64,000 bases of DNA from Actinotalea lenta. GTDB lineage: Bacteria > Actinomycetota > Actinomycetes > Actinomycetales > Cellulomonadaceae. How positions within the stretch are numbered: position 1 is the first letter of the stretch; the number at the start of each line of letters is the position of its first letter. Below, piece after piece: positions 56,796 through 62,517 of the stretch. The notes under the pieces are model-generated. The model saw nothing but the letters and a program-made list of their open reading frames with translations. It did not search any database and was not told where the DNA came from. The stretch covers positions 1,543,446 to 1,607,445 of the forward strand of contig NZ_JAUQYP010000001.1 in NCBI RefSeq assembly GCF_030586465.1, read 5' to 3'. Both the position numbers and the translations under genes were made by a program.

Positions 56796-57044
56796 TCAGT
56801 GCAGCGCGTGCGCGGTGAGGTAGGCAACGGCGCCGTCGACCGTGACCACCTGCGCGTAGTCCTGCTCGGGCACCTCGATCCCGGTCTCCTGGTACAACCC
56901 GATCGCGAGGTCGAGGATGTCCATCGAGTCGAGGTCGAACTGCTCGCGCAGGTCCTCGGACGGCTCGACGCGCTCCAGGTCGACCTCGGGTGCGACCTGG
57001 CCCAGCACCTTCAGCACCGTGGTCCGCAGCTCGGTGTCGTCCAT
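56796..57044 (-). CDS. Acyl carrier protein of the dehydrogenase operon
   Basis: 82 residues. The phosphopantetheine site is Ser40 in EQFDLDSMDILDLAIGLYQE (DSM in place of the DSL of fatty-acid ACP). Four-helix acidic ACP; conserved TGIEVPEQDYAQVVTVD follows. It is not in a fatty-acid operon: it is the last gene of a unit with holo-ACP synthase, acyl-CoA synthetase and E1/E2. Starts nine bases after E2 with GAGGAG before ATG 57044. I infer it receives the acyl group from E2, or from the ligase. The partner that takes the acyl chain on is not in the window. Confidence 0.92.
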   Translation of the reverse strand: MDDTELRTTVLKVLGQVAPEVDLERVEPSEDLREQFDLDSMDILDLAIGLYQETGIEVPEQDYAQVVTVDGAVAYLTAHALH

Positions 57045-57053
57045 GGTCTCTCC

Positions 57054-58304
57054 TCACAGGTCGTTCGGCCGTTGCAGCAGGTCGTCCAGCGCGGCAAGGA
57101 AGGTCGCGCCCCGGCGCCCGTCCGTGGCCCGGTGATCGGCCGCGAGCGTCACGGTGAGCACGGGTCGCACGGCGAGCATCCCGTCGACGGCCCACGGGCG
57201 CTCACGCACGCGACCGAAAGCGACCATCGCGAGCTGGGGTGGGTTGATCACCGGGTACGCCACGTCGACGCCCTGGTCGCCGAGGTTCGTCACGGTCGCC
57301 GTCGGGTCGGCGTACTCCGAGGACCGGACCTTGCCGGCTCGCACGCGGGCAACCAGGTCGTGCAGGGCGGCCATCATCTCGGGCAGCGCCAGCCGGTCGG
57401 CGTCGTGGACCGCCGGGGCCACGAGGCCGCCACCCCTCAGCGCGATCGCCACGCCGAGGTGCACGTGCTCGGCCGGCCGGTGCTCGCCGTCCACCCAGTG
57501 GCCGTTGAGCTCGGGGACGGCGCGCAGCGCCAGCGCGGTGGCCTTGAGCTGGAGCGCGGCGACCAGCACCCGCTCGGTCACCGGCACCGACGTGTTGTGC
57601 GCCTCGAGCCAGCGGGTCGCGTGCGCCATGTCGACGTCGGCTGCCAGGTAGTAGTGCGGGATCTCCCGCTTGGACCGGGCCATCGCCTCGGCGACGGCGT
57701 GCCGCATCGACGCCTGGCGGTCCGCCCCGCTGCGCGGCACGACCGGCGCGACCGGCGCGGGCTCGTCAACGACCGGTGCGGGCTCGGGTTCGACGGTCAG
57801 GGCAGGCCGGACCGGGTGTGCGGCGGTCTCGACGTCGCTGGTCGTCACGGCTCCGCCCGGACCGGTGCCGGTCACGGTGGCGAGATCCACCCCGAGCGCC
57901 GCTGCATGGCGACGGGCCAAGGGAGACGCCGCGACCCGAGCGGCGCCACGCACCAGCGGTACTGCTGCCGGCTTCGTCGCGGGCTTGGCGGCCGCCTCGG
58001 TGGTCGTCGCGCGTGTCCCGGGTCGGGTGCGGGTCGGCACCGCGCGACGACGCGGCTGCGCCGCCCCGACCCCCTCGGCGATGACTGCGAGCGGCGTGCC
58101 CACCGGCACGCGCTCGCCCTCGTGCACCAGCAGCTCGCTCACGGTGCCGGTGTCGAACGTCTCGACCTCGATGACCGACTTCTCGGTGTCCACCTCGGCG
58201 ACCACCTGGCCGCGCTCGACGTGGTCACCCACGCCGACGAGCCAGCTGACCAGGGTCCCTTCGTCCATGTCCGCACCCAGTGACGGCATCCGGAACTCAG
58301 CCAT
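57054..58304 (-). CDS. E2: dihydrolipoamide acyltransferase
   Basis: 416 residues. Lipoyl domain at the N-terminus with Lys42 in [13 protein letters not shown]; an Ala/Pro-rich linker; a peripheral-subunit-binding region ([20 protein letters not shown] and TGTGPGGAV); catalytic domain with His391 in [16 protein letters not shown] (DHRxxDG). One lipoyl domain only. It moves the acyl group from E1-bound hydroxyalkyl-TPP via lipoamide to a thiol acceptor, normally CoA. In this operon the ACP is the next gene. Overlaps the E1beta stop by eight bases. No E3 gene in the window. Confidence 0.93.
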
Positions 58305-60320: not shown

Positions 60321-62086
60321 GTCGGCTCCTCTCCCTCGAGGGTGGACAGGTCGCCGATCGGCAGGCCCAGCTCCCGGGCGCGCAGCAGGCGGCGCATGAT
60401 CTTGCCGCTGCGGGTGTGCGGCAGCTCCTCGACGAAGGCCAGGTCGCGCGGGGCGACTGCGGCGCCCAGGCGCGTGCGGCCGAACCCGATCAGCTCGCGC
60501 CGCAGCGTGTCGTCGGGCAGCGCCCCGTGGGCCAGGACGACGAACGCCTTGACGACCTCCCCGGCCATCGGGTCGGGCAGCCCGATCACACCCGCCTCGG
60601 CGACCGCGGGGTGCTCGAGCAGCGCGGACTCGACCTCGAACGGGCCGATCAGGTGGCCCGAGGACTTGATCACGTCGTCCGCCCGGCCCAGGAACCACAC
60701 GTAGCCGTCGGCGTCGCGCGTGACGAGGTCGCCCGTGCAGTACCAGCCGCCCTTGAAGCAGGCCGCGTAGCGCTCGGGCTGGCCCAGGTAGGTGCGGAAC
60801 ATCGACGGCCAGCCGGGCTTGAGGGCGAGCTCGCCCTCGACGCCGGGGCCGAGCGGCTCGACCTCGCCGTCGGTGACCAGCACTCCGGCCGGACCACGGC
60901 GCAGCACGGCGATCTCGACACCGGGCAGCGGGTGTCCCATCGACCCGGGCCGGATGTCGGACGCGACGGTGTTGGCGATCATGATCCCGCCGGTCTCGGT
61001 CTGCCACCACGTGTCGTGGATGGGCAGCCCGAGGGCCTCCAGGCCCCAGCTCACCGCTTCCGGGTTGAGCGGTTCGCCGACGCTGGCCACGAAGCGCAGC
61101 GCGTCGAGCCCCTCGATCCGCCCGCCGCTCGCGCGCATCAGGCGCCGGACCGCGGTGGGCGCGGTGTACCAGACCGTGACGTGCTCATCGCGCAGGATCG
61201 CGTACCAGCGGTCGGCGTCGAAGTCGGCCTCGTCGACGATGCTCGTCACCCCGCGCGAGAGCGGCGCGACGATGCCGTAGGACGTGCCGGTCACCCAGCC
61301 GGGGTCGGCGGTGCACCAGAACACGTCGTCGGGGTGCAGGTCGAGGGCGAACCGGGCCGTCGCCTCGTGCATGACCACCGCCTCGTGCACGTGCACGGCG
61401 CCCTTGGGGGTCCCGGTGGTGCCACTGGTGAAGTGCAGCAGAGCGGGGGTCTCGGGCTCGGTCGCAGCGACGGTGTAGTCGTCCGAGGCCGCCGCCATCA
61501 GTGCGGCCAGGCTGAGGGTCCCGGCCGGGGGCTCGGCGTCGGCAGGCACGTCGACCAGCAGCACGTGACGCAGGGCAGGCAGCCGGTCGCGCAGGCCCTC
61601 GACCTTGCGTGTGTAGGCCGACCTCGTGGTGACCAGGACCTTCCCCTCGCCGATCTCGATGCGCTGACGCACAGGTTCGGGACCGAACGCGGAGAACAGC
61701 GGGCTGGCCACGCAGCCGGCCTTGAGGGCTCCGAGCACCGCCACGTACAGCTCCGGGACCCGGCCGCTGAGCACGAACACCACGTCCCCGCGGGTCAGGC
61801 CCAGCGAGCCGAGGACGTTCGCGAACCGGTTGGTGCGTCGGCGCAGCTCGGCGTAGGTCAGGTCCTCGCGCTCGCCGTGGCGGCCGAGCCAGCGCAGCGC
61901 GACGTGCTCCGCGCGTGGGCCGGCGGCGTGCCGGTCGACCGCCTCGTGGGCGATGTTGAGCCCGCCGCCGGGCAGCCCGTCGACCCACGCGCGCGCCTCG
62001 TCCCAGGTGAACGGCGCGGGGTCGGGCGGCAGCAGCGGGGGGACCCGCCAGTCGGCCGGCGTCTTGTGGATCTGGGTGAGGGTCAT
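60317..62086 (-). CDS. Acetyl/short-chain acyl-CoA synthetase (AMP-forming)
   Basis: 589-residue ANL enzyme of the acetyl-CoA-synthetase branch. [20 protein letters not shown] (P-loop), [20 protein letters not shown] (A4, DxGW of Acs), [17 protein letters not shown] (A5) and [20 protein letters not shown] with [16 protein letters not shown] (A8). The C-terminal [16 protein letters not shown] carries the catalytic Lys. Slightly shorter than Acs (about 650) and similar to Bacillus AcsA. It may supply acetyl-CoA or acyl-AMP to the neighbouring E2 and ACP, or recover free acid. Overlaps acpS and E1alpha by four bases each. Confidence 0.92.
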
Positions 62087-62517
62087 CTCGGATCACCGTT
62101 CCCGGCCGCCACGACCACCGCGACGGCATGTGTCGGGTCGTGCGCAAGGCTCAGCTCCCAGCGGTCCAGGCCCCGCTCGAGGGCGATGGTCCGGGCCGCG
62201 CCGCGCAGGACGAGGTGCGGCGCGCCGCGGGTGGGTGCCGCCTCGACGTCGCGCCACGCGACCGGGCCGATGCCGGTGCCGAGCGCCTTGGCCGCCGCCT
62301 CCTTGGCCGCGAACCGCGCCGCGAGGCGCCGCACGTCGCCGCCGCAGCCCTCGCGCTCGGCGGGGGTGAACACCCGTTCGGTGAGGGCCGCTCCGCGCCG
62401 CGCGAGCACGCGCGCGAGGCGGCCCACGTCGACCACGTCGACGCCGACGGCGAGTGGCCGCACGTCGGCCCGCGAGCCGTCGCCCGGCGGCTCGAGAGGC
62501 CGGACACCTGCACTCAT
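62083..62517 (-). CDS. acpS: Holo-[acyl-carrier-protein] synthase (4'-phosphopantetheinyl transferase)
   Basis: 144 residues. [20 protein letters not shown] has the Asp of AcpS motif I (GxDxVxxxR). [20 protein letters not shown] then [20 protein letters not shown] is the second signature, W/F-AxKEAxx[16 protein letters not shown] is the C-terminal SHxxxxA strand. It transfers phosphopantetheine from CoA to the ACP serine. First gene of the operon; ATG 62517. The likely client is the ACP at 56796. A 21-bp tandem repeat lies 60-145 bp upstream. Confidence 0.92.

Follow-up and report, generated by a model that had tools for sequence, protein, structure and literature searches.

How do non-growing, oxygen-starved aerobes keep making ATP? 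Bearing on this open question is an operon in a 64,000-nucleotide stretch of the Actinotalea lenta genome (referred to as the window), in which genes for the E1 and E2 proteins of a pyruvate dehydrogenase (PDH)-like complex are joined to genes for an acyl carrier protein (ACP), a holo-ACP synthase (AcpS) and an AMP-forming acetate–coenzyme A (CoA) ligase. We read the operon as a low-oxygen accessory pyruvate-oxidising module in which the ACP would take acetyl from E2 and the ligase may make acetate and ATP, a reading to which we give a probability of roughly 0.45. It draws on the gene content, order and co-directionality of the operon, its intact motifs and the conservation of five of its genes, as well as on the stress and hypoxia neighbourhoods and promoter boxes of relatives. 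Low-oxygen control in A. lenta itself we infer.

Conservation and layout of the cassette

E2 alone was utilized to scan 84,980 genomes and the best 80 of 204 confirmed relatives were kept. Judged by record titles, 52 of these loci are actinobacterial, with carriers that include Mycobacterium, Rhodococcus, Streptomyces, Nocardioides and Lentzea, and 28 are proteobacterial, with Rhodoferax, Polaromonas, Pseudomonas and Marinobacterium among them. Genes for the ligase, E1-alpha, E1-beta and E2 were found in this order on one strand in 76 of the 80 loci, the other four lying on contigs that start inside E1-beta (L047, L048 and L072) or roughly 100 bases ahead of it (L056). An ACP was detected with the family hidden Markov model (HMM) in 79 of the 80; at the sole locus without one (L023) the sequence stops about 520 bases past the E2 match. 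Since relatives picked by E2 similarity alone share both the order and the ACP to this extent, the arrangement is far beyond chance. An earlier sequence-only reading of this DNA had proposed a synteny comparison as a check, which these counts bear out, and had allowed that the gene order might not be conserved beyond close relatives, which the actinobacterial, proteobacterial and plasmid loci contradict.

Thirty plasmid records matched E2, mostly over the catalytic domain (one of the 30 covers 80% of E2), and the regions of 13 were examined. All 13 held the ligase, E1-alpha, E1-beta and E2 in order together with an ACP detected by HMM, and the ACP was named by the annotation in all 11 annotated regions, as a "phosphopantetheine-binding protein" in L162. 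The annotated carriers were Leisingera (two), Sulfitobacter, Tropicibacter, Sinorhizobium, Methylocystis, Cupriavidus, Burkholderia, Rhodococcus (two) and Streptomyces. In four Roseobacteraceae plasmid regions (L153, L157, L161 and L162) a single annotated pdhA gene, about 2 kb long, encodes E1-alpha and E1-beta as a fusion. No confirmed relative was found on viral contigs. The cassette is sporadic: of 396 genomes of the phylum, 8, among them that of A. lenta, had an E2 match with an E value of 1e-90 or lower. In a tree of E1-beta (84 rows) the window clusters with L112, L115 and L113, and 24 of 25 proteobacterial rows fall together in a supported set, itself part of a larger one that includes mycobacterial and Rhodococcus rows, while Marinobacterium, on a long branch, lies apart from the other proteobacterial rows. 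The tree is consistent with an old transfer between phyla, the direction of which is not provable from the tree alone.

The sixth gene, acpS, has a narrower distribution. The AcpS of the window, used as a query, gave no AcpS adjoining the cassette at any of the 80 scan loci (three matches were insignificant, and a divergent phosphopantetheinyl transferase, PPTase, could escape such a search). Of 101 genomes of the window's own family, 8 were matched by the ACP query, A. lenta included, five of them strongly. Three further full cassettes in this family (L112 of the same genus, L113 and L115) carry AcpS at their head, adjoining the ligase, at 67% identity. As a matching AcpS was found in this family only, the six-gene form is a family-level version of a widespread five-gene cassette. 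An orphan ACP about 71% identical to that of the window was observed in L114 (12748-13005); other cassette genes were not detected there, an open reading frame upstream of it resembles a transposase by eye, and the ACP is perhaps a cassette remnant. L114 and L119, which has only an ACP at 29% identity, were excluded from the cassette counts, L114 being kept in the ACP alignment.

The operon as described from the window DNA has all six genes on the minus strand, from 62517 to 56796 (Table 1). The junctions from acpS through the ligase, E1-alpha and E1-beta to E2 are overlaps of 4, 4, 4 and 8 bases, and a gap of 9 bases separates E2 from the ACP; the sequence-only reading had this layout exact to the base, and its six gene identities agree with the Pfam and NCBIfam assignments. 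The ligase scored 848.9 bits against the acetate–CoA ligase model NF003313 (PRK04319 type; cut-off 729), E1-alpha 441 bits against the pyruvate equivalog TIGR03182 (cut-off 393.85) and E1-beta 416.3 bits against NF006667 (cut-off 321). E2 remained under the cut-off of every E2 model listed, with 258.6 bits against 445 for TIGR01349. None of the six genes encodes an E3, which was not searched for elsewhere in the genome. It had also been stated that no E3, thioesterase, ketosynthase or polyketide synthase (PKS) gene is near, and none was seen when the genes between about position 43 kb and the end of the window were listed with an approximate gene caller and nine of these neighbours were given family searches.

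The genome (3.31 Mb, 3 contigs) holds a second AcpS copy at C1:123235, one other ACP above the Pfam cut-off at C1:2663911 that is distinct from the operon ACP, three further E2 catalytic domains and other E1-type genes, and the operon is therefore an accessory set. This supports the earlier description of a tightly packed unit with a dedicated ACP, the AcpS being a second copy and the other ACP separate.

Table 1. Operon genes and upstream features in the window; gene coordinates include stop codons, and families were assigned by Pfam and NCBIfam
Feature	Position	Strand	Support
acpS, holo-ACP synthase, 144 aa	62083..62517	-	PF01648 6.6e-14
Acetate–CoA ligase type AMP-forming synthetase, 589 aa	60317..62086	-	NF003313 above cut-off
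Pyruvate dehydrogenase E1-alpha, 330 aa	59328..60320	-	PF00676; TIGR03182 above cut-off
Pyruvate dehydrogenase E1-beta, 344 aa	58297..59331	-	PF02779, PF02780; NF006667 above cut-off
E2 dihydrolipoyl acyltransferase, 416 aa	57054..58304	-	PF00364 lipoyl, PF02817 E3-binding, PF00198 catalytic
Dedicated acyl carrier protein, 82 aa, phosphopantetheine Ser40	56796..57044	-	PF00550 1.8e-7
Four tandem 21-bp repeats, about 60 bp upstream of acpS	62577..62661	-	Tandem Repeats Finder score 119, 87% matches
GGGACCAAGGGC, DosR-box-like element in last repeat	62578..62589	-	Identical element upstream of acpS in same-genus L112
F420H2-dependent quinone reductase family gene, neighbour outside operon (start codon not settled)	62780..63364	+	PF04075 above cut-off

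Neighbouring genes and upstream boxes

The setting of the cassette was evaluated by searching 18 representatives of recurrent flank genes in 86 cassette loci, with 20 stretches from two mycobacterial genomes as controls. At least one stress or hypoxia flank match was obtained in 63 of the 86 loci against 1 of the 20 controls, and two or more representatives in 44 against none; since the representatives came from cassette flanks their source loci are counted too, and the proteobacterial loci have no control of their own. Leaving out DnaK, GroEL and formate dehydrogenase changed the counts to 60 of 86 and 1 of 20. A match was obtained in 44 of the 58 actinobacterial loci and in 19 of the 28 proteobacterial ones. 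The families represented included universal stress proteins (USPs), CBS-BON proteins, GrpE, DnaJ, a MerR regulator, flavohaemoglobin, Hsp70, GAF-GAF-HisKA_3 (DosS-like) kinases, LuxR-type response regulators, nitroreductases, pyridoxamine oxidase-like proteins, erythromycin-esterase/PRT proteins, wax-ester synthase, formate dehydrogenase and GroEL. [NiFe]-hydrogenase-like subunits, under equivalog cut-offs, also occur in the flanks, and proteobacterial flanks include Hsp20, hemerythrin, nitroreductase and USP.

Genes of energy metabolism were found near a smaller number of the 99 cassette loci searched, and in none of the 20 controls: phosphoenolpyruvate (PEP) synthase close to 10 of them, PfkB close to 7, and V-type ATPase genes close to 4 (Streptomyces and Lentzea; L027, L036, L050 and L052). 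On the Sulfitobacter plasmid the cassette stands beside a rotary ATPase operon (L166 8474-15244), a polyhydroxyalkanoate (PHA)-synthase-like protein, FabI, an enoyl-CoA hydratase/Pta fusion and acetate kinase; of the 99 loci, this was the only one in which FabI, Pta or Ack was detected. A 939-aa PP-binding/AMP-binding/acyltransferase protein, a possible acyl-ACP user, is encoded just upstream of the Cupriavidus plasmid cassette (L156 1714-4533), and a glycerol-phosphate acyltransferase gene lies about 8.5 kb from the cassette in Sinorhizobium L154. Other examined flanks hold unrelated genes. No non-ribosomal peptide synthetase (NRPS) or PKS synthase was present among the listed window neighbours or those neighbours of relatives that were given family searches, which did not take in every neighbour. 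A 2,199-aa open reading frame two genes behind the Pseudomonas cassette was considered as a synthase and rejected, Pfam assigning it to glycoside hydrolase 94/glucoamylase, with a USP in between. The roles in lipid branching or as a cofactor source that the sequence-only reading had offered find little support in flanks that are mostly of the low-oxygen and stress kind, although a lipid acyltransferase gene lies close to two of the plasmid cassettes.

Promoter windows, spanning 420 bases before to 30 bases after the ligase start, were scanned in 48 of the 52 actinobacterial and 23 of the 28 proteobacterial loci, the others being too short upstream; standard DosR and FNR consensus boxes were used. 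DosR-type boxes are enriched just upstream of the cassette in Actinobacteria. The box GGGACTWWAGTCCC was matched at 12 or more of 14 places in 15 of the 48 actinobacterial promoter windows (21.6 kb), compared with 11 matches in the other 764.7 kb, and GGGNCNWWNGNCCC occurred in 18 of the 48, at 0.88/kb versus 0.026/kb elsewhere. With a G+C core the same frame was seen in 2 of the 48 (0.093/kb versus 0.021/kb elsewhere). These loci are not independent, as many are related mycobacteria. No DosR box was found in the 23 proteobacterial promoter windows; an FNR-type box was found in 4 of them and 19 times elsewhere in the same 23 loci.

In the window itself acpS and the F420H2 quinone reductase gene are divergent, and the four tandem repeats sit in the intergenic region they share; each 21-bp repeat is about two helical turns. 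Neither L112, L113 nor L115 of the same family showed the repeat pattern, and GGGACCAAGGGC was not found upstream of acpS in L113 or L115. Compared with the mycobacterial DosR consensus the upstream region reached at best 9 of 14 places, at another site, and 35 of 40 shuffles did as well; a relaxed consensus, written after seeing the window, reached 11 of 14, matched by 2 of 40 shuffles. As a genome-wide DosR pattern GRGACCAWSGGCY was discarded, giving 8 matches against 6 for the reversed control. Six stretches that hold eight of the genome's nine USP matches gave no match to the window element; looser palindromes do occur in them, but not one that has an A/T core and lies 900 bases or less upstream of a USP match. 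A USP domain was detected by Pfam about 3 kb from the cassette in L113. The A. lenta genome does encode a GAF-GAF-HisKA_3 (DosS-like) kinase that shares 39% identity with the one close to the Rhodococcus cassette L011; the gene adjoins cydC (TIGR02868 above cut-off) and, in convergent orientation, a LuxR/NarL-like response regulator that scored under the NarL cut-off.

Proposed mechanism and its alternatives

In the proposed module E1-alpha and E1-beta would decarboxylate pyruvate and load acetyl onto the lipoyl arm of E2, which a housekeeping E3, docked on the E3-binding domain of E2, would re-oxidise; it is the presence of this domain that would let an E3 from elsewhere dock. The operon's AcpS would convert the ACP to holo-ACP, which would then take acetyl from E2 instead of, or besides, CoA. 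The AMP-forming acetate ligase would use the same acetyl carrier and in an energy-starved cell may run toward acetate and ATP. The residues that such a pathway needs are in place. Lipoyl Lys42 and the catalytic His391 and Asp395 of E2 are invariant in 87 of 87 sequences, and E2 keeps the DHRxxDG motif. Asp39, Ser40, Asp42 and Leu44 are invariant in all 79 aligned ACPs (the window, 74 of the 80 scan loci, three cassettes of its own family and one orphan of that family), and so are the WWQTET motif and Lys562 (TRSGK motif) of the ligase in 77 of 77. Its DTWWQTETG is also found in solved acetyl-CoA synthetases, and the Trp of WWQTET presumably restricts the pocket to acetate. With an acetate-type ligase and a pyruvate-equivalog E1-alpha, both entry points look like two-carbon chemistry.

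As the ligase is conserved with E1, E2 and ACP as a closed unit, it is a candidate consumer of the acyl-ACP. A loop from pyruvate via acetyl-ACP to acetate and ATP is preferred because no other acyl-ACP consumer was found to recur in the flanks, and because PEP synthase and PfkB do. Taken to its full extent this would be a CoA-independent energy route: E1/E2 would convert pyruvate to acetyl-ACP, and the ligase would turn acetyl-ACP, AMP and pyrophosphate into acetate and ATP, which together with a reversed PEP synthase and PfkB would amount to an AMP-driven glycolytic fermentation, cross-phylum and plasmid-borne. We regard this extended form as doubtful.

Several observations weigh against the low-oxygen, ACP-dependent reading. 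The hypoxia link is weaker for the window's own genome and family: the window box is imperfect and common to one relative only (L112), and L112, L113 and L115 gave no match in the flank-representative search, as did 23 of the 86 cassette loci overall. One cassette, in genome G125 (L116, of the same genome as L105), has the ligase, E1-alpha, E1-beta and E2 with no ACP detected behind E2. The ligase retains R537 in 77 of 77 sequences, which by manual count aligns with Arg584 of Salmonella Acs, a residue we take to contact CoA, and CoA may therefore be its substrate. The Thr of the E2 TVTNLG motif recurs in two other alignable E2s of the genome, the third (L130) not being alignable and hence left out of the comparison. 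Acyl transfer to the ACP from E2, or by the ligase as the sequence-only reading also allowed, is a step that we infer. Loss of CoA-binding features was tried as a discriminator and does not discriminate, as E2 has the motifs of the genome's other E2s and the ligase keeps R537; no usable list of contacts to the CoA phosphate was found in the searched passages of PMC5986005, PMC8421416 and PMC10415282. The charge of ACP helix II (-3 for the window segment, a family mean of +0.45 over 75 ACPs and 0 for the genome's other ACP) permitted no conclusion.

That the ligase and E2 retain canonical residues would also be expected if E2 used CoA as usual, or if it loaded the ACP and the acyl-ACP fed a biosynthetic enzyme encoded elsewhere or only sometimes nearby, a widened form of the sequence-only reading that we hold to be unlikely, though the likeliest of the alternatives. 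In QncN/QncL/QncM and SclQ1-4 the ACP passes a C2 unit to a peptide synthetase, according to PMC6335953, and candidate consumers are present at single loci, namely the 939-aa protein of L156, the acyltransferase of L154, and FabI and the PHA-synthase-like protein of Sulfitobacter. The acyltransferase-type neighbours in L154 and L156 led us to rate this alternative higher than we otherwise would. The candidates do not recur however, FabI being confined to its one locus, and no ketosynthase was found among about 50 neighbour proteins family-searched, a set that does not cover every locus for ketosynthases or acyltransferases.

It is also conceivable that the ligase runs forward and scavenges acetate onto CoA or ACP, making the module one of stress recovery and not of fermentation. 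AMP-forming acetate ligases mainly activate acetate and this ligase belongs to family NF003313; its being locked to E1, E2 and ACP in 76 of 80 loci would however be left unexplained, as would the PEP synthase and PfkB neighbours, and we consider the proposal improbable. Less probable by far is that the ACP serves lipoylation by carrying octanoyl for LipB and so supplying the lipoyl arm. E2 does require lipoyl-Lys42, and octanoyl-ACP is the usual donor, but neither lipA nor lipB was found among the family-searched neighbour proteins or in the plasmid regions with annotation; a further ACP is present in the genome, and an acetate-type ligase would have no explanation.

Relation to known systems

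E1/E2-like proteins that build a C2 unit on an ACP are known from quinocarcin (QncN/QncL/QncM) and scleric acid (SclQ1-4 with SclP), and the precedent invoked in the sequence-only reading for E2-like proteins loading an ACP is real (PMC6335953). As described there, the Qnc and Scl systems likewise have E1-alpha, E1-beta, lipoyl-acyltransferase and ACP genes clustered, and in scl a PPTase gene lies beside the module as acpS does in the window operon. They differ in lying in peptide biosynthesis clusters, with a proposed ketose phosphate start and a glycolic unit (PMC6335953), whereas the cassette adds an acetate ligase, has an E1-alpha of the pyruvate equivalog, and in relatives has a stress and low-oxygen setting. 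By its genes the cassette is a set of the Qnc/Scl kind to which an acetate ligase is added, and as far as examined it lies outside peptide biosynthesis clusters. E1/E2/ACP modules themselves are already known; what is new is the stress and low-oxygen setting of the cassette in relatives.

The operon resembles a PDH complex of the alpha2-beta2 E1 type in its TIGR03182 and NF006667 scores above cut-off, the domain order of E2 and the DHRxxDG motif, and departs from it in the E3-less operon, an E2 under the E2-model cut-offs and the attached ACP and acetate ligase. The ligase resembles AcsA (PRK04319 type) in scoring above the curated cut-off and keeping the catalytic lysine K562; unlike AcsA it is tied to E1/E2/ACP in the 76 loci. 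The neighbours and upstream boxes of relatives, and the DosS-like kinase of the A. lenta genome, recall the DosR/DevR hypoxia regulon. A paper on this regulon in M. avium (PMC11876180) nevertheless never mentions acyl carrier, acetyl-CoA, lipoamide or oxo acid, and pyruvate only in a cited title, and one on M. abscessus (PMC10034137) contains none of six such terms, the presence of the cassette in these strains not having been checked. No description of the cassette was found in the open-licence literature, where mention in the tables of expression studies is possible.

The cassette forms a discrete and transferable unit that occurs in both Actinobacteria and Proteobacteria, and its neighbours include hydrogenase-like subunits, DosS-type kinases, PEP synthase and, at some loci, alternative ATPases. 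If the ACP is truly the acyl acceptor, this would be the first PDH-like complex that we know to use a carrier protein without belonging to a natural-product cluster.

Two genes behind the ACP remain to be mentioned. In the window a fatty acid desaturase gene (55479-56657, plus strand) is convergent with the ACP gene; a search with it in the regions of eight relatives gave no match. L112, of the same genus, encodes a DLH-type alpha/beta hydrolase 9 bases behind the ACP (6006-6674) that might act as a thioesterase on the acyl-ACP.

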